A stretch of 64,000 bases of DNA from a bacterium (GCA_027485645.1 JAIXQR010000007.1:310001-374000), one strand, 5' to 3'. Shown: positions 29,392 through 49,965, numbered from the stretch's first letter. Notes: generated by a model from the sequence alone, not told the origin. Program-made: numbers and translations.

Positions 29392-29410
29392 GCTCATCTG
29401 ACCGAAGACG

Positions 29411-29446
29411 AACAGCCCAGAACGGATATCGTTCTGGGCTGTTTTG
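29411..29446 (+). terminator. Rho-independent terminator after rpsG
   Basis: A 14-bp perfect stem, AACAGCCCAGAACG (29411-29424) and CGTTCTGGGCTGTT (29430-29443), with a 5-nt loop and a following TTTTG. It separates rpsL-rpsG from fusA. Confidence 0.88.
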
Positions 29447-29548
29447 TGCCTGCCTCTATTCCAAACCAGCCGGACCCAGTGGGCGGCTTCGGTGCACAGA
29501 AAAAGTGCCCCGAACGAAAACGTTCGAGGCACTTGGGCTACCAGTGAA

Positions 29549-29875
29549 TTACGGGTTGACCGTAATCACGACACTTCGCGAGTTGCCACCATTCGACAGC
29601 GTTACCGTCACGTTTGTTGGAACGAGAACGGAGCCGGGGAAGGCCTTAACGCTCTTGCGGTCCGAGGTGGACGGTACGAGGAACGTGCTGCTAGCGAACG
29701 AGATTGCGTTTGGATTGTCCGAGGTCACGGTGATCGTTTTGCCAACTCCGCCAACGACTGCGTTCATGAGCGCCTCGATAAAGATGCTCGAACCCTGGTT
29801 GACCACGGTGCTGCTCGGGACGTTTGAGAATGCTGTCGCTCTACGGCTTTTCAGCTTGGGAGAATCCGAACGCAC
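29549..29875 (-). pseudogene. Fragment of a secreted Ig-like repeat protein (probable remnant)
   Basis: A 108-residue frame beginning with GTG at 29875; an in-frame stop lies 10 codons upstream (29906-29908). It has no signal peptide. It holds one Ig-like beta module with repeated S/T/V strands and ends SVVITVNP, the way large secreted proteins of this organism's type end (compare the C-terminus of the protein at 40028). It reads like the C-terminal end of a larger gene whose front is lost. It lies antisense in the rpsG-fusA gap. Whether it is expressed cannot be told. Confidence 0.4.
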
Positions 29876-30077
29876 GTCAATGTTCAGCTGAATGGGTGGC
29901 CGCGGTCAGCGAGTCTCGCTCGAAATCTTTGAACCTGTCCCGTAGATGGTCCCACCGCGCGAACTTGAATTCTTGCGTTTCTCCCCTCCTAACGTTCATA
30001 CTCCTAGGTTGGACCCGATTGCAATGCCTCTCGGCAAAGCGGGCTGGTGTCCAAAAAATCAACGAGAAGATATTCCC

Positions 30078-32231
30078 ATGCCCCGTAGTCACGCTCTAAA
30101 CTTCGTTCGGAACATCGGTATTGCTGCGCACATTGACGCCGGCAAGACAACCACCACCGAGCGCATCCTCTATTACACCGGTAAGAGTCACAAGATCGGA
30201 GAGGTTCACGACGGAGCAGCGACGATGGACTGGATGGAACAGGAGCAGGAGCGAGGCATCACGATCACCTCGGCTGCTACCTCGTGCTTCTGGCGCGTTA
30301 GCCGATTTGACGATGCAGACGGAAAGAACACGTCTGACCAGTACAAGATCAACATCATCGACACCCCAGGCCACGTTGACTTCACGGTTGAAGTTGAGCG
30401 TTCGCTTCGAGTGCTCGACGGTGCAGTCTGCGTTCTCTGTGCGGTAGGTGGCGTTCAGCCCCAGACCGAAACGGTTTGGCGCCAGATGAACAAGTACATG
30501 GTTCCTCGAATCATTTACGTCAACAAGATGGACCGAATCGGAGCCGACTTCTACTCGGTTCTGGAGCGTGCTAAGGATCGACTCGGCGCCAACGCGGCAC
30601 CGATCCAGATTCCTATCGGTCAGGAAAGCGAGTACCTCGGATACGTTGACCTCATCACAATGACCGCCGCCGTGTACGACACGGACGACGACAAGGGCAA
30701 GAGCTTCCGCCGAGCCGATATTCCGGAGAACATGCGAGAAATCGCCGCTTCTTACCGAGAAAAGATGCTCGAAGCGATTGCGGACTATGACGAAGAAATC
30801 ATGGTTCGATTCCTTGACGGCGAAGAGATCAGCGAGCAGGACATCCGCGTTGCGCTCCGAAAGGGCTGCCTCGCCAACAAGATCGTTCCGATGATCAGCG
30901 GCTCTTCGTTTAAGAACAAGGGCGTCCAAGCCATGATCGACTCGGTCATCGACTACCTGCCATCGCCGCTCGACGTCGGTGCAGTTAAGGGCGTTGACCC
31001 AGACACCGAAGAAGAACTGATGCGAGAGCCAGACGACAAGGCTCCGTTCAGCGCGCTTGCGTTCAAGATCCAGAGCGACAAGTTCGTCGGTCGATTGACC
31101 TACCTTCGCGTTTACAGCGGAACCCTGAAGAAGGGCTCTTCAGTTACGGTGACCTTCCGAGACCCCGTTTCGAACGACTTCCGAACTCGAACCGAGCGAA
31201 TCGGCCGAATTCTGGAAATGCACTCAAATCAGCGACAGGACATCGACGAAGTATTCGCCGGTGACATCGTGGGCGTCATCGGTCTTGCCGACGTTAACAC
31301 CGGTCACACGGTTTGCGACGAAGATCACCAGATCGCGCTTGAAAGCATCAAGTTCCCAGAGCCAGTTATCCAGATCGCGATCGAGCCGAAGTCTCGATCC
31401 GACCAGGAAAAGCTTGGTACGGCGCTTGTTCGACTTGCGCAGGAAGACCCAACCTTCCGAGTGTTCACTGACCCTGAAAGCGGCCAGACGATCATCTCCG
31501 GAATGGGTGAGCTTCACCTTGAAATCATCGTTGACCGACTGAACCGAGAGTTCGGCGTTCAGGCGAACCAAGGAAAGCCACAGGTTGCTTACCGAGAAAC
31601 GGTCCGCGGCAAGGCGAAGGCAGAAGGCCGATTCGTTCGACAGACGGGTGGTTCCGGTCAGTACGGTGTGTGTACGATCGAAATGGAACCATTGGAAGTC
31701 GGACAGGGCTTCGTCTTCGAGAACAAGGTTGTTGGTGGTGCGATTCCGAAGGAATACATCCCGGCTTGCGAAAAGGGAATCCGCGAAGGTCTGATCTCGG
31801 GCGTTCTCGCCGGTTACCCGGTTGTAGACGTTAAGGTCTCGCTGACCGACGGTTCGTACCACGACGTTGACTCGAACGAAAACGCCTTTAAGCAGGCAGG
31901 TCTCTTGGCTTTCAAGGAAGCCATGAAGAAGGCAAACCCGGTTCTAAAGGAGCCGATCATGCACGTCGAAGTCACGACGCCAAACGACTACGTTGGAGAC
32001 GTTGTTGGAGACATCAGCAGCCGACGCGGTCAGTTGCAGGGTCAGGATTCGGCTCCGGGCGGAGTTGTGGTCATCAACGCCCACGTTCCACTTTCGGAAA
32101 TGTTCGGCTACGTTACAACGCTTCGATCGCTCACCCAGGGTCGAGCGGCTCCAAACGTGACGCCAAGCCACTACGAAGAAGTTCCGAACAACATCGCAGC
32201 GGAAATCACGGCGAAGGCCGGCTCTCGCTAA
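30078..32231 (+). CDS. fusA: Elongation factor G
   Basis: Translocase GTPase of 717 aa. G1 is [13 protein letters not shown]2 around RGITIT, G3 DTPGHVD and G4 NKMD. Domains II-V follow, including [14 protein letters not shown] and the domain IV stretch [12 protein letters not shown] 30078 matches the family start ([20 protein letters not shown]); the frame is open further upstream. Arginine is almost always CGA. It is flanked by terminators on both sides and is thus its own transcription unit, with a gene-free leader from about 29876. Confidence 0.98.
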
Positions 32232-32242
32232 GATAGGCCCTA

Positions 32243-32274
32243 GCGGCCCTGCCATTTGGCAGGGCCGCTTTTTT
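32243..32274 (+). terminator. Rho-independent terminator after fusA
   Basis: An 11-bp perfect stem, GCGGCCCTGCC (32243-32253) and GGCAGGGCCGC (32258-32268), loop ATTT, then six T residues (32269-32274). Confidence 0.92.
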
Positions 32275-32342
32275 GTGCCTGTACTGTTACGACTTTGTGC
32301 CCATCGGGCTTAACCAAGACGGTAGCTTCCATATCGTAAGCA

Positions 32343-32771
32343 ATGATTGTTCAGAGACAGGCCCCTCGGGTCCCGCCAAATGCGCCGAGTTCAACCCCGC
32401 CCCCGCCGAGCCCAGCGCCAACCTTAGGTGATCGACTGTTTGGTGTCGCCTATGGAATATTCACGATCGGCCATGCTTCGGCGTGGCTTTTACTGTTCTG
32501 GAATTCGCCGGGTGGTATCAAAGTGTTGCAGCAGTTCGTTGCAGTATTGGTGATCGTTCTCTGCACGGCTGATCTTTGGTGGGTGGCTGTTGCAGCGTAT
32601 AGAGGAAAGCAACGTGCCTACGAACGTGCAGAACTCTTTTCATATCTTCATGCTTTTTCCCCGTTCATCGTCTTGCTGATTGTGAACTTACGTACTTTCC
32701 CGCTATTCCTAGGGGTTGTATTGCTGATGTTCGCGGCCGGTTACCGGCGAAGGCGCGGATCTTGGACGTGA
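32343..32771 (+). CDS. Small membrane protein, divergent member of family A
   Basis: Unrecognised family. A protein of 142 aa with a Pro-rich N-terminal tail (to about residue 27) and about four hydrophobic helices, ending in an Arg-rich RRRRGSW tail. The opening IVQRQ and the ending GSW resemble the two family A proteins at 32868 and 33917 (IVQRQQ...GRW), so I treat it as a divergent paralogue. The upstream sequence shares GGTAGCTTC with the later copies but not the full promoter module. It is the first gene of the membrane-protein island between fusA and tuf. Confidence 0.7.
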   Translation: MIVQRQAPRVPPNAPSSTPPPPSPAPTLGDRLFGVAYGIFTIGHASAWLLLFWNSPGGIKVLQQFVAVLVIVLCTADLWWVAVAAYRGKQRAYERAELFSYLHAFSPFIVLLIVNLRTFPLFLGVVLLMFAAGYRRRRGSWT

Positions 32772-32831
32772 CTTCGCTTAGCTTGTGAACTCAAGCAGCC
32801 TCTAGGGTCTGAGGTTTTTAGGACCTTAAGT

Positions 32832-32863
32832 GGGAAACTTGCTCTTGCTCGGTAGCTTCTAAC
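32832..32863 (+). promoter_or_regulatory. Repeated promoter module, copy 1
   Basis: GGGAAAC (32832-32838), 19 nt, TCTAAC (32858-32863), then 4 nt to the ATG at 32868. Two further copies share the identical heptamer, hexamer and spacing. The layout resembles an ECF-type promoter giving a leaderless or nearly leaderless mRNA; there is no Shine-Dalgarno. Confidence 0.6.
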
Positions 32864-32867
32864 CTGC

Positions 32868-33323
32868 ATGCCGATCATTGTTCAGCGTCAGCAAAGTGGC
32901 CCGACACCGCCACCAATCCAGGTGCCCGGTCAGCCATCTGTTCCGGTAGGGGACACGGTCTATGCGGTCGTTTTCGGGATCTTTGCCGGGGCTTTAGCGT
33001 TGGGTTCGCTTGGTGTCTCAGTTTGGCTTTGGAGCCCAAGCGTGATGAAAGATGCTGGGATGGGAGCCATTGGAATTCCGATCGTGTCTGGCATTTTGAT
33101 GGCCGTTTTTGTTGCTGCCTCTTTTGCTGCGATAAAACTCGTGCCGATGATGCTGAAAAGCGACTCTCACGGTTTCAGTGGCGCCGGGGTTTCGTGCTTA
33201 ATCCTTGTGGGATCGCCGATTGGTAGCTATGCTTTTTTGAGCTATGTTGCGATTGCGCTCGCGGTGCTTATCATCGTCCTAGGATTCGTGGGACTTTACC
33301 GCGGGATAAGAGGAAGATGGTGA
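32868..33323 (+). CDS. Small four-helix membrane protein, family A
   Basis: Unrecognised family. The protein has 151 aa: a Pro-rich N-terminal tail (MPIIVQRQQ... to about 28), about four hydrophobic segments (roughly 33-55, 65-90, 100-120 and 122-143) and a basic end RGIRGRW. It is about as long as, and alignable throughout with, the protein at 33917 (same VGDT-Y opening of TM1, FAGALA-GSLG, GRW end). It lies directly behind promoter copy 1 and is followed 41 bp later by a family B gene. Function unknown. Confidence 0.72.
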   Translation: MPIIVQRQQSGPTPPPIQVPGQPSVPVGDTVYAVVFGIFAGALALGSLGVSVWLWSPSVMKDAGMGAIGIPIVSGILMAVFVAASFAAIKLVPMMLKSDSHGFSGAGVSCLILVGSPIGSYAFLSYVAIALAVLIIVLGFVGLYRGIRGRW

Positions 33324-33364
33324 TTGCAGCGATGCCCGACGAAACTCAAGGAGACCAAGACTAA

Positions 33365-33799
33365 ATGGGACTTAAGATTTCAAAACACGACCCGTCGCAA
33401 CCGCCGCCGGTCATTGGTCCGAAGTCGTCCAACGTGGTTTTCGCGATCCTTTATGGGGTGATGTGCTTGGTAACGGCCGTTGCAGTTCTTGCGACTTTGT
33501 TCAACCAGACTCGAGAGGTGCAGACGGGAGGGCTCGGATCGGTCTTCAGGATGGCATTGATTCTGTTCGGCGTACCTATCACAAAGTTGTTGATCGCAGT
33601 GTTGTCGCTCCCGCTTTACCAGGGCAAACGATGGGCATACGAATGGGCATTCCTGACCCTCCTTGCCTCGCCGCTCTTTTTATTCCTCGGCGGCGCAGCC
33701 ACAACGCTCCCAGCGGCGCTTTTCTACTTTGTTGGCACGCTGAACCTTGCATTGGCATCCGCTTCGCTTGTTGTAAGTCCGCCGAAGCTGCGCCCTTAG
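33365..33799 (+). CDS. Small four-helix membrane protein, family B
   Basis: Unrecognised family. 144 aa: a hydrophilic N-terminus with the family signature KISKHDPSQPPPVIGPKSS, four hydrophobic helices and a short end VVSPPKL. The helix 1 signature is VMCLVT, with KRWAYEWAF between helices 2 and 3. Three paralogues follow at 34414, 34872 and 35457. The upstream stretch CAAGGAGACC supplies a Shine-Dalgarno (spacing about 8). It is paired with the family A gene at 32868. Confidence 0.72.
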   Translation: MGLKISKHDPSQPPPVIGPKSSNVVFAILYGVMCLVTAVAVLATLFNQTREVQTGGLGSVFRMALILFGVPITKLLIAVLSLPLYQGKRWAYEWAFLTLLASPLFLFLGGAATTLPAALFYFVGTLNLALASASLVVSPPKLRP

Positions 33800-33880
33800 G
33801 TATGGGCCGTTTCTGGTGCACGTAATAAAAGCAGCGACGGGTTTACAAAAAGGTGGTCCGAAGTTTTTGGGACTTTGACC

Positions 33881-33912
33881 GGGAAACTTGCTCTGGATCG
33901 GTAGCTTCTAAC
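33881..33912 (+). promoter_or_regulatory. Repeated promoter module, copy 2
   Basis: GGGAAAC (33881-33887), 19 nt, TCTAAC (33907-33912), then 4 nt to ATG 33917. The flanks are also alike (TTTTTGGGAC upstream, GGTAGCT before the hexamer), showing that this block was duplicated together with the family A gene. Confidence 0.6.
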
Positions 33913-33916
33913 CAGT

Positions 33917-34372
33917 ATGCCGATCATCGTTCACTGTCAGCAAACTGGACCGACTCCAGGGCCAGCAAAGACCCAGGCGCAACCTGCGGTCTGGGTCGGT
34001 GACACGATTTACGCACTTGTTTACACGGCTTTTGCCGGGGCACTAGCCGCCGGCTCGTTGGGTTGGCCGTTTTGGGTCCGAGACCACTCGCTTTTGAACG
34101 TCGCACAGAATGGAACGCTCGACGTGCCGTTTGCTTTTGGGCACTCGATCTTGCTTACCCTCGGCGCCACGATTGCGGTCGTGATGTTCGTGCCGAAAAT
34201 GCTAAGGGGTGACTCAAGCGCATTTAGCGAAGCAGGGGCATGGTGCTGGGTACCTCTTGTTTTGCCGTTGGAAATCTACATGCTCTTCGGCTACGAGGGC
34301 GTCGTTGTCTCGTGCATCGCACTGGTCCTTGGCATTCCAGCTCTACATCGCGGTGCAAAGGGAAGATGGTGA
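33917..34372 (+). CDS. Small four-helix membrane protein, family A (paralogue)
   Basis: A 151-aa paralogue of the protein at 32868: MPIIV-QQTGPTP opening, Pro-rich tail, VGDTIYALVYTAFAGALA in helix 1, four hydrophobic segments and HRGAKGRW at the end. It is preceded by promoter copy 2 and followed 41 bp later by a family B gene, the same spacing as the first A-B pair. This supports a tandem duplication of an A-B unit. Function unknown. Confidence 0.72.
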   Translation: MPIIVHCQQTGPTPGPAKTQAQPAVWVGDTIYALVYTAFAGALAAGSLGWPFWVRDHSLLNVAQNGTLDVPFAFGHSILLTLGATIAVVMFVPKMLRGDSSAFSEAGAWCWVPLVLPLEIYMLFGYEGVVVSCIALVLGIPALHRGAKGRW

Positions 34373-34413
34373 TTTCGATGACGAATACGCAATGCTTGGG
34401 CAGGTCAAGGTAA

Positions 34414-34845
34414 ATGGCACATCAGATTTCCAAGCACGATCCTTCCCAACCGCCTCCGGTTATCGGCCCGAAGTCGTCCAATGTGGTTTTCGCGGTCCTT
34501 TACGTGCTGATGTGCCTAGTGACAGACATCGCGGTTCTTTCGACGATATTTTTCCAAACGGCAGAAATGAAGTCGGGTGGCCTCGGAGTTGTAGGTTGGC
34601 TATTCTTTGTCACTCTTGGTGCCCTGGTGATCAAAGTGCTCATTGGCGTGTTGTCGGTTCCGCTGTACTACGGCAGACGCTGGGCTTATGACCTTGCATT
34701 TCTAACGCTGCTAGGCTCGCCGCTGTTTCTCCTTCTGGGTGGGCTGGCCACGACGCTACCGGCGGGAATTTTCTACTTTATCGCCACTCTGAACCTGGCT
34801 CTTGCGGTCACTTCGTTGGTGATCAGTCCGCCAAAACTCTCCTAG
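34414..34845 (+). CDS. Small four-helix membrane protein, family B (paralogue)
   Basis: A 143-aa paralogue of the protein at 33365, nearly identical in the first 25 residues (ISKHDPSQPPPVIGPKSSN) and in the helix 1 signature LMCLVT. It has four hydrophobic helices and ends VISPPKLS. It is the second member of the second A-B unit and is followed 26 bp later by another family B gene. Function unknown. Confidence 0.72.
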   Translation: MAHQISKHDPSQPPPVIGPKSSNVVFAVLYVLMCLVTDIAVLSTIFFQTAEMKSGGLGVVGWLFFVTLGALVIKVLIGVLSVPLYYGRRWAYDLAFLTLLGSPLFLLLGGLATTLPAGIFYFIATLNLALAVTSLVISPPKLS

Positions 34846-34871
34846 TCGAACTGGAATCCTTAGTACCGGAC

Positions 34872-35306
34872 ATGGCACATACAATCAAAAAACACGATCC
34901 TTCTCAACCTCCGCCGGTCGTCGCGCCGAGGTCGTCTTATTTGGCTTTTGCAATCATGTACGGAGTGATGTGCCTCGTGACGGGCGTTGCAAGTGCGGCG
35001 ACTTTGAGTAACCAGACGGAACAGACGAAGTCGGCAGGGCTCGGCGTGGTCTTCTGGATGGCAATTATTGTCTTCGGTTTGCACATTATCATGGTGTTGA
35101 TCGCCGCACTGTCGTTTCCACTTTACAAGGGAGAACGTTGGGCCTTCGAGTTTGCGTTTTTCACCCTCCTCGTTTCGCCGGTCTATCTCTTTTTGGGTGG
35201 CGCTGCTTCAACCCTCCCACCGAGCATTTTCTACGTGATCGGCACGCTCAACTTGGCGATGGCAGGTATCGCATTCATTATCAAGCCACCTGTCCTCAAA
35301 ATTTGA
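34872..35306 (+). CDS. Small four-helix membrane protein, family B (paralogue)
   Basis: A 144-aa paralogue with IKKHDPSQPPPVVAPRSS at the N-terminus, VMCLVT in helix 1, ERWAFEFAFF between helices 2 and 3, and PSIFYVIGTLNLA in the last helix. It has no family A partner directly upstream. It starts 26 bp after the previous stop, so it can share its transcript. Function unknown. Confidence 0.72.
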   Translation: MAHTIKKHDPSQPPPVVAPRSSYLAFAIMYGVMCLVTGVASAATLSNQTEQTKSAGLGVVFWMAIIVFGLHIIMVLIAALSFPLYKGERWAFEFAFFTLLVSPVYLFLGGAASTLPPSIFYVIGTLNLAMAGIAFIIKPPVLKI

Positions 35307-35383
35307 AGACAGGTCGGGGTTCAGCACTTTCTCGCGGCGAAATGATTTCGAACGGTTGGTCGCAGGTTTTTGGGACCGTATGC

Positions 35384-35415
35384 GGGAAACATGAAAAGAT
35401 CCCCTTTCCTCTAAC
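35384..35415 (+). promoter_or_regulatory. Repeated promoter module, copy 3
   Basis: GGGAAAC (35384-35390), 19 nt, TCTAAC (35410-35415), then 4 nt to the ATG at 35420. Unlike copies 1 and 2, the 19-nt spacer has diverged, while heptamer, hexamer and distances are unchanged. That pattern points to selection on the two boxes. Confidence 0.6.
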
Positions 35416-35419
35416 GAAC

Positions 35420-35452
35420 ATGCCGATCACAGATTTGGCAAGGACAAGTTAA
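35420..35452 (+). pseudogene. Relic start of a family A gene, or a 10-codon leader peptide
   Basis: ATG CCG ATC at 35420 repeats the family A opening (MPI) at the same distance from the promoter module, but after 10 codons (MPITDLARTS) the frame ends at TAA (35450-35452), 4 bp before the next family B gene. Most simply, an A gene was deleted here leaving its promoter and first codons; it could also act as a translated leader. Confidence 0.5.
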
Positions 35453-35456
35453 TCCG

Positions 35457-35903
35457 ATGGCGCAGAAAATTTCTAAGCACGATCCTTCCCAACCTCCACC
35501 GGTCATCGCGCGAAGGGGATCGGGTCGATCGTACGCCGTACTCTATGTCCTGGCTTGCCTTCTTAGCGCGGCTATGGGAGTGGCTGCCATCAGCAACATT
35601 AGACCGGACCATCGATATGTTAGCTATCTCGGCGGCGATAACGACTGGAGACCAATTCAGCAGTTGACAACATCGTTCAGAGTTTTGAGCGCGATAGCTT
35701 TAGCTTTCGCATTTGCGGTTCCGCTTTGGAAGGGACAGCGGTGGGCGTGGCAGCTCGCGAGTGGGAGCTTGATTTTCTCCTTCGTTTATCTGGGCTGTTC
35801 AGCGGGGATGACAACGATTTCGATCGGATTCTATGTCCTGGTAGGTTCGCTCAATCTTGTTCTTGCGGCAGTCGGATTGGTTCTGACCCCTCCGAAATCC
35901 TGA
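35457..35903 (+). CDS. Small four-helix membrane protein, family B (divergent paralogue)
   Basis: A 148-aa family B paralogue with the ISKHDPSQPPPVIARRGS opening. It has a longer loop after helix 1 (around residues 50-65, with HRYVSYLGGDND) and ends LVLTPPKS. It stands directly behind promoter copy 3 and the family A relic. It is the last gene of the island before tuf. Function unknown. Confidence 0.72.
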   Translation: MAQKISKHDPSQPPPVIARRGSGRSYAVLYVLACLLSAAMGVAAISNIRPDHRYVSYLGGDNDWRPIQQLTTSFRVLSAIALAFAFAVPLWKGQRWAWQLASGSLIFSFVYLGCSAGMTTISIGFYVLVGSLNLVLAAVGLVLTPPKS

Positions 35904-36121: not shown

Positions 36122-37354
36122 ATGGCACGAGCAAAATTCGAAAGAACAAAACCTCACGTCAACATTGGCACCATTGGCCACGTTGACCACGGTAAGACGA
36201 CCCTAACCGCAGCGATCACGGGAGTCCTTCAAACGAAGGGACTCGCAATGGCCCGAAAGTACGATGAAATCGACTCGGCCCCTGAAGAAAAGGCCCGTGG
36301 AATCACGATCAACATTTCGCACCAGGAATACGAGACGGATACGCGACACTACGCGCACGTCGACTGTCCTGGACACGCTGACTTTATCAAGAACATGATC
36401 ACCGGTGCCGCTCAGATGGACGGCGCTATCTTGGTCGTGGCTGGTACGGACGGCCCAATGCAGCAGACCCGAGAGCACATCCTTTTGGCTCGACAGGTCG
36501 GTGTTCCTCACATCGTTGTCTTCATCAACAAGATTGATGCGGTCGACGACGACGAACTGCTGGATCTCGTCGAAATGGAAGTTCGAGAACTCTTGAGCAA
36601 GTACGGCTTTGACGGCGACAACACGCCAGTCATCCGCGGTTCGGCTCGAAAGGCCCTCGACCAGGTTGAAGCCGGCACGGTTGCTTACGACGACAAGTAC
36701 GTCAAGGCGATCACCGACCTCATGGATGCAGTCGATGCCTACATCCCAACCCCAGAGCGAGACAAGGACAAGCCATTCTTGATGGCCGTCGAAGACGTCT
36801 TCACGATCACCGGACGAGGCACCGTTGCTACGGGCCGAGTTGAGCGCGGTCAGCTGAAGTCGATGGAAGAAGTTGAGATCGTTGGTCTCTCCGAAGCTCC
36901 TCGAAAGACGATCTGCACCGGCGTTGAAATGTTCCGAAAGACCCTCGACTACTGCGAAGCTGGCGACAACGTCGGCTTGCTTCTTCGAGGCGTTGACCGA
37001 ACGATGATCGAGCGCGGCATGGTTATCGCCAAGGTCGGCACGATCAAGCCTCACCGAAAGTTCAAGGCAGAGGTTTACGTTCTGTCGAAGGAAGAAGGCG
37101 GCCGACACACCCCGTTCGTTAAGGGTTACCGACCACAGTTCTTCTTCCGAACCACGGACGTTACCGGAACCATCGAAGAAATTCAGGGTCAGGGCGGCGC
37201 GGTTGCAGAAATGTGCATGCCTGGTGACAACGTCACCATGAGCATCGAACTGATCGAAGGCAAGCCAGTTGCTGTCGAACAGGGTTCGAAGTTCTCGATC
37301 CGAGAAGGTGGCCGAACCGTCGGCGCCGGCGCGATCACCGAGATCCTCGAATAA
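36122..37354 (+). CDS. tuf: Elongation factor Tu
   Basis: GTPase of 410 aa that brings aminoacyl-tRNA to the ribosome. G1 is [10 protein letters not shown]2 RGITIN, G3 DCPGHAD and G4 NKID. The domain 3 stretch [16 protein letters not shown] is present. It is slightly longer than the 394-aa E. coli protein owing to insertions around residues 185-215. By my count, 20 of its 25 arginines are CGA. It follows the membrane-protein island instead of fusA and ends at a strong terminator. Confidence 0.98.
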
Positions 37355-49452: not shown

Positions 49453-49965
49453 ATGTCGGTAGTTACCCAGGCAGTGCATGCCGTATCCGGACTCTTTGCG
49501 AGGGCTAAGCGGTCTGAGGAGGTCGTCAGTGCGTTCTTGCAGAACGAGCGGCCGTGTATGTATCGGTTAGCCCTCAGCATTACCCAGCGGTCTGATCTGG
49601 CAGAGGACGCCGTTCAAGAAACTTTGATTCGATGTTGGCGATCAACCAAGAAGCTGACCCAGGTTAGCGATCTCAAGGCGTTCTGCCGGCAGGTGCTAGT
49701 GCGACGTGCGATCACGGTGCTTAAAGCTCACAGCTCAGCTGAGCTGCCGGAAGTTGAGGACGCAAAAGTGTTTGGTGAGCAGGTCGATGTTCGTCTGGTT
49801 TTGCAATCGCTTCCGGCCGATTCCCGCGCGATCCTCTCGCTTTCCTACTTTGAAGGGCTGTCCTACCAAGAGATTTCCGACACCCTGGGAATTCCTGCCG
49901 GAACCGTAGCCTCGCGGCTGAGTACCGCACGTGAACGATTTCGCGATGCTTGGGAGGCGAAATGA
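49453..49965 (+). CDS. ECF-type RNA polymerase sigma factor
   Basis: A small sigma-70 family factor of about 170 aa with only regions 2 and 4. Region 2 is in LALSITQRSDLAEDAVQETLIRCWRS; region 4 is LPADSRAILSLSYFEGLSYQEISDTLGIPAGTVASRL, ending ARERFR. ATG 49453 is preceded by GGAG at a good distance. It overlaps the next gene by 4 nt (ATGA), which in turn overlaps a third, so the three form one operon. Such factors usually answer envelope signals through a membrane anti-sigma factor. Confidence 0.9.
   Translation: MSVVTQAVHAVSGLFARAKRSEEVVSAFLQNERPCMYRLALSITQRSDLAEDAVQETLIRCWRSTKKLTQVSDLKAFCRQVLVRRAITVLKAHSSAELPEVEDAKVFGEQVDVRLVLQSLPADSRAILSLSYFEGLSYQEISDTLGIPAGTVASRLSTARERFRDAWEAK

Follow-up and report, generated by a model that had tools for sequence, protein, structure and literature searches.

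A tandem array of lineage-restricted small membrane-protein genes between fusA and tuf of a bacterial genome

Layout and distribution of the island

The 64-kb window analyzed here, the whole stretch GCA_027485645.1 JAIXQR010000007.1:310001-374000 of a bacterial genome, harbors an island of seven open reading frames (ORFs) between fusA, which ends at 32231, and tuf, which starts at 36122. The ORFs encode small proteins of 142-151 amino acids (aa) from two undescribed groups, A and B, in the order A, A, B, A, B, B, B, and match in number, size, order and coordinates what an earlier reading of the DNA (the sequence-only reading) had described. They are real genes, as their frames are open and their proteins are under purifying selection. 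Two adjacent A-B pairs are copies of one duplicated unit, all intact B proteins carry the same KHDPSQPPPV tail, and the genes are restricted to this genome and its closest relatives. The features of the island are as follows:

32242-32275, plus strand: intrinsic terminator of fusA (12-bp stem, T run), which parts fusA from the island
32343-32771, plus strand: A1, divergent A-like membrane protein, 142 aa
32832-32863, plus strand: promoter-like block of unit 1, GGGAAAC-N19-TCTAAC, with the A2 ATG 4 nt downstream
32868-33323, plus strand: A2, 151 aa, unit 1
33365-33799, plus strand: B1, 144 aa, unit 1, with an AAGGAG Shine-Dalgarno sequence and the KHDPSQPPPV tail
33881-33912, plus strand: promoter-like block of unit 2
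33917-34372, plus strand: A3, 151 aa, unit 2
34414-34845, plus strand: B2, 143 aa, unit 2, 87% identical to B of the sister species (genome G014)
34872-35306, plus strand: B3, 144 aa
35357-35452, plus strand: remnant of a further unit, with a promoter block (35384-35415), an A-type start and a 10-aa ORF, MPITDLARTS and stop (35420-35452)
35457-35903, plus strand: B4, divergent B, 148 aa
36016-36121, plus strand: tuf promoter and 5′ leader, the right border of the island, with the conserved GACCGAAGT and the hairpin GGGCGA-CGGG-TCGCCC

Searches of Pfam, NCBIfam, PHROGs, PADLOC and PDB sequences yield no usable match for the island proteins, in agreement with the earlier statement that they belong to no recognizable family, and no known defense protein among the PADLOC profiles is matched at E values up to 1. 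B3 reaches two Pfam families of small helical membrane proteins below threshold, DUF308 (PF03729; E 0.0022, 18.7 bits against a cut-off of 25) and DUF805 (PF05656; E 0.053, 14.4 bits against 25.7). Membership in either is rejected, since the scores lie under the curated gathering cut-offs and B3 is the only one of six B members to match.

A profile search of 291 genomes of the phylum finds B in two (this genome and G014) and A in three (these and G011), and the genes are thus lineage-restricted paralogues, as had been proposed. In the fusA tree, this genome groups with G014 (support 100/99), and G011 forms the next branch (99/97). A scan of 84,980 species with B returned a single match, the sister metagenome-assembled genome G014, labelled Chthonomonas calidirosea isolate ME-09jul19-71; the scan required an I[SK]KHDPSQ-like stretch, such that tail-less relatives of B could escape it, and A was scanned within the phylum. 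Nothing was found in viral collections and contigs or in a plasmid collection, the latter searched with B2. Weak profile matches in G004, G010, G037, G047, G051, G097, G121 and G161 were not confirmed as relatives; those inspected are other proteins or antisense frames (type-II-pilin-like, PstC-like permease, HD-domain protein), and three have no suitable ORF.

G014 has A, B and B, in this order, between fusA and tuf, while the one A gene of G011 lies at another place, its neighbors being a tRNA-like sequence and a gene that reads as lhgO-type. From this distribution it follows that A is the older family, B having arisen later or been lost in G011, and that the fusA-tuf location is common to the two closest species only. 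The sequence-only reading had named absence of the cluster from this place in all close relatives, with signs of random decay, as the finding that would count against it; this is not the case, as the cluster of G014 occupies the same place, though with a nonsense codon in one of its copies.

Protein architecture and predicted expression

Hydropathy gives every protein a tail followed by three to four strongly hydrophobic segments. Four membrane segments are found in all B copies, in A2 and in the A proteins of G014 and G011, and three strong ones in A1 and A3. Lys and Arg cluster in the N-terminal tail, the loop between helices 2 and 3, and the C-terminal tail, and both termini are therefore predicted to face the inside. 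The seven proteins had been described as having a common design of tail and helices. The hydrophobic helices do follow the tail in all of them, but the invariant tail belongs to B alone: the Pro-rich stretch of A retains its composition and not its sequence, with a proportion of replacement differences (pN) of 0.42 at residues 11-20, and the ends of the A tail, MPIIV and VGDT, are kept, with pN of about 0.2.

AlphaFold2 models B as a helical bundle of fair reliability, with a predicted local distance difference test score (pLDDT) of 78 and a predicted template modeling score (pTM) of 0.71, and Foldseek finds no match to this fold in the PDB (best E 0.41). Matches from VIA-align, with Z up to 10.6, are to assorted soluble and membrane four-helix bundles in the range expected for helical bundles, and no function is read from them. 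The two families of the sequence-only reading probably share one ancestor and form one superfamily, on moderate evidence: hhalign aligns them with P 9e-5 and a probability of 59%, and some members outscore nearly all of 1000 windowed shuffles while others do not.

A2, A3, the remnant and A of G014 share one upstream anatomy, in which GGGAAAC, exactly 19 nt, TCTAAC and 4 nt precede the ATG. Both boxes are constant in the four copies, and the spacer sequence has diverged. In the window the pattern is found three times against 0.02 expected by chance, although these blocks are duplicates, such that the evidential weight lies in their conservation across diverged copies. No Shine-Dalgarno sequence precedes A2 or A3; AAGGAG is found before B1 and AAGG before B2. 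This arrangement suggests a leaderless start for A and a single transcript for each A-B unit.

Dyads also precede the promoter blocks (32806-32830 and 33855-33879), with the form AGGT-N7-ACCT before A2 and in G014 and AAGT-N7-ACTT before A3. The symmetry is kept through two-sided changes, and the dyad is a possible operator.

Duplication, turnover and selection

The sequence-only reading had noted an equal A-B spacing and taken it as a sign of repeated duplication, a proposal that is borne out by the repeats themselves and by a mosaic in G014. The gap is 41 bp within both A2-B1 and A3-B2, and the two pairs are in-register direct repeats with a period of exactly 1049 bp, far above chance. Alongside them, a 103-bp repeat covers the promoter block and each A start. 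The two-gene unit was thus duplicated as a single piece. Before B4 the upstream block and the A start occur a third time, here cut to a 10-codon ORF, so that an eighth gene has been lost. Protein identity is 56-68% among B1, B2 and B3, 35-43% between these and B4, and 42% between A2 and A3; A1 is 22-30% identical to A2, A3 and G014 A, and its likeness to them lies mainly in the IVQRQ start and a tail rich in Pro.

The A-B pair of G014 is a mosaic that changes over at the A-B junction: its A half is nearer to unit 1 and its B half nearer to unit 2. The unit was therefore duplicated before the two species parted, and it is by recombination that the array turns over. Most simply, G014 would have lost the B1-A3 segment through recombination between units. 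The second B gene of G014 carries a TAA nonsense codon at codon 4 (L007:1959-1970). The tail-coding DNA that follows it is near-identical to that of the first G014 copy, suggesting a recent conversion or a nonsense mutation of recent date, unless the assembly is in error; a recent conversion of the 5′ end is likely in G014, whose two tails differ at one codon only.

Between this genome and G014, fusA and tuf are about 99% identical (fusA 98.9%), with 0.10-0.31 synonymous substitutions per synonymous site (dS), while the island proteins are 58% (A2 against G014 A) and 87% (B) identical. Neighboring glycosyltransferase-like and carbonic-anhydrase-like genes also have high to saturated dS to G014. 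Thus, the low dS of fusA and tuf is due to codon constraint, and the silent divergence of the island is unexceptional.

For B2 and G014 B, nonsynonymous substitutions per nonsynonymous site (dN) are 0.07-0.08 and dS 0.57-0.76, with dN/dS of 0.09-0.14. The ratio is well under 1 in most pairs and exceeds 1 in none. Constraint is strongest in the B tail: across five intact B copies, KHDPSQPPPV has a pN of 0.00 and a proportion of silent differences (pS) of 0.59, compared with 0.32 and 0.67 for the body outside the tail. The B pairs compared are non-independent, which does not account for the zero replacements in the tail. As silent sites vary in the tail as much as in the body, selection acts on the peptide and not on the DNA or RNA. 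Gene conversion is rejected as the sole cause of tail constancy in the window copies, the tail silent sites of which differ at up to six of ten codons. The sequence-only reading had suggested that HDPSQPPPV may be a docking motif, and purifying selection is consistent with such a role, making the B tail a concrete candidate.

The fusA-tuf site and the proposed working of the array

The junction between fusA and tuf is often taken as fixed, and the sequence-only reading regarded it as normally free of genes and placed the island within the str operon. Neither view holds for this genus. The island is separated from fusA by the strong terminator, a hairpin and T run like which are seen by eye in G014 and G011, and from tuf by a separate promoter-leader. 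This 106-bp element is present as a single copy in the genomes of 13 out of 20 genus members and finds no match in genomes whose fusA-tuf gap is 20-55 bp. It comprises a TA(A/T/C)ACT box, the conserved GACCGAAGT and the 6-bp hairpin, which is invariant; covariation is small (z-score -0.31), and Rfam returns nothing usable over the region, the leader included. The element could be a regulatory leader of EF-Tu.

In the split-type relatives, the gap often takes up extra genes. The gaps read (G008, G015, G001, G018 and G011) generally hold unrelated ORFs, their content ranging from a single small ORF (G011) to roughly nine kb (G018). In G012 and G007, whose fusA and tuf are on separate contigs, unrelated ORFs are likewise found next to the leader of tuf. 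G016, in which the leader is not matched, also has other ORFs behind fusA. The gap of G002, G003 and G010 measures 0.3-0.5 kb and shows no clear gene. The small ORF of the G011 gap (L054) has a GTG start (KTTIDLSPEAYLVAKSFASESKISLSSAVSQLILG...) and resembles, by reading, a ribbon-helix-helix antitoxin, with no partner in the gap. What is of interest in this undescribed and narrowly distributed array is thus not its site but the docking-like tail and a turnover that can be read from three related species, from the first appearance of A through B, duplication and mosaic recombination to decay.

We tentatively favor a working, which may well be correct, in which the island is a lineage-restricted tandem array of tetraspan inner-membrane proteins with A and B as partners. 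Each unit would be transcribed from its own putative promoter before A; A would be translated leaderless and B downstream from its Shine-Dalgarno sequence, such that the two are made together. With four predicted transmembrane helices and both termini inside, A and B would lie side by side in the membrane, where the constant cytosolic tail of B may bind one constant cytosolic partner while the variable helices and outside loops diversify through duplication and recombination among units. A far-reaching extension, in which paired A and B proteins share a cytosolic effector via the tail and recombination generates an adaptive repertoire for recognition or immunity outside any known family, is very unlikely.

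Several observations weigh against the favored working. The structure model of A is unreliable (pLDDT 55), and for several members the homology of A and B is weak. Genome-wide, the promoter block shows no enrichment, with 41 sites against 70 for a control at two mismatches. Other proteins with the tail motif are in short supply, as the rest of the genome has it only at the C-terminus of IF-3 (also in G014) and in one accidental-looking ORF, and a regulon of proteins with a shared tail is rejected on the same grounds. The nonsense codon in G014, unless an assembly error, indicates that one member or more can be dispensed with.

The closest working analogy is provided by the TsaI (DUF443) immunity arrays of type VII secretion systems (T7SS) in Firmicutes, in which tandem, non-identical polytopic membrane proteins combine a conserved block at the N-terminus with a variable remainder. 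TsaI has five predicted transmembrane helices and one 5′ homology block, and recombination between tandem paralogues is reported for EsaG and TipC (PMC9484751), which likewise form arrays of non-identical small proteins in Firmicutes that turn over in this way. By this analogy, the island would protect against membrane-acting toxins of competitors, with the constant N-terminus binding a common host component and the variable body recognizing toxins, as proposed for TsaI. The island does hold tandem polytopic membrane paralogues (by predicted topology) with a constant N-terminal block, a variable rest and mosaic recombination, much like the features described for T7SS immunity arrays (PMC9484751). 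However, the proteins have four predicted helices rather than five, the invariant tail has 10 residues rather than about 75, no pair has a dN/dS above 1, and little recombination is seen in tsaI itself (PMC9484751). The phylum also differs, no DUF443 is listed in a Pfam hmmscan of all seven proteins at E up to 1, no other immunity-family profile matches, and no T7SS, other secretion module or toxin gene stood out when the ORF list of the window was read, the flanks having been read rather than scanned with profiles; a toxin gene could lie elsewhere. Membership with TsaI is not claimed because DUF443 is not matched and no toxin is recognized in the window, and an immunity array is on the whole rather unlikely. 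Alternatively, the proteins may be general envelope or stress proteins that stabilize the membrane or modulate a transporter or enzyme, transcribed from a promoter of the extracytoplasmic function (ECF) sigma type (sigma-E-like GGGAAACTT / TCTAAC). The conserved elements and spacing around a diverged spacer fit such a promoter, as does an ECF-sigma-like ORF of 170 aa recognized by reading at 49453-49965, with a 548-aa ORF after it. An ECF regulon would be expected to include further sites, one at its own sigma gene among them, yet the motif is private to the island, so that the regulon is rejected, the block is kept as a local promoter candidate only, and the envelope or stress role is judged unlikely.

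Mostly neutral expansion, by which orphan duplicates in a permissive gap are in the course of erosion and one pair at most is functional, would account for the remnant A start, the nonsense codon in G014, the very few genomes with these genes and their fast divergence relative to fusA. The island resembles taxonomically restricted (orphan) gene families of bacteria in its few species, fast evolution, purifying selection and tandem duplicates. It is set apart from them by the replacement-free 10-residue stretch of B and by the pairing of A and B in a unit whose promoter block is constant. Seven open frames, a dN/dS well under 1 in most comparisons, and a B tail free of replacements despite strongly diverged silent sites make neutrality quite improbable. 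A functional link to translation, with the island belonging to the str operon, is disfavored and merits hardly any credence. Its one point is the fusA-tuf position in two species, and because the gap is commonly occupied in the genus, the position is no argument for it; the fusA terminator, the separate tuf promoter-leader and the further A gene elsewhere in G011 also oppose it. The str operon is, moreover, split here at two junctions, as rpsG and fusA lie about 690 bp apart (29392-30077). This second gap contains a possible ORF on the reverse strand (29549-29875) and, on the same strand, a terminator-like hairpin (29503-29534).

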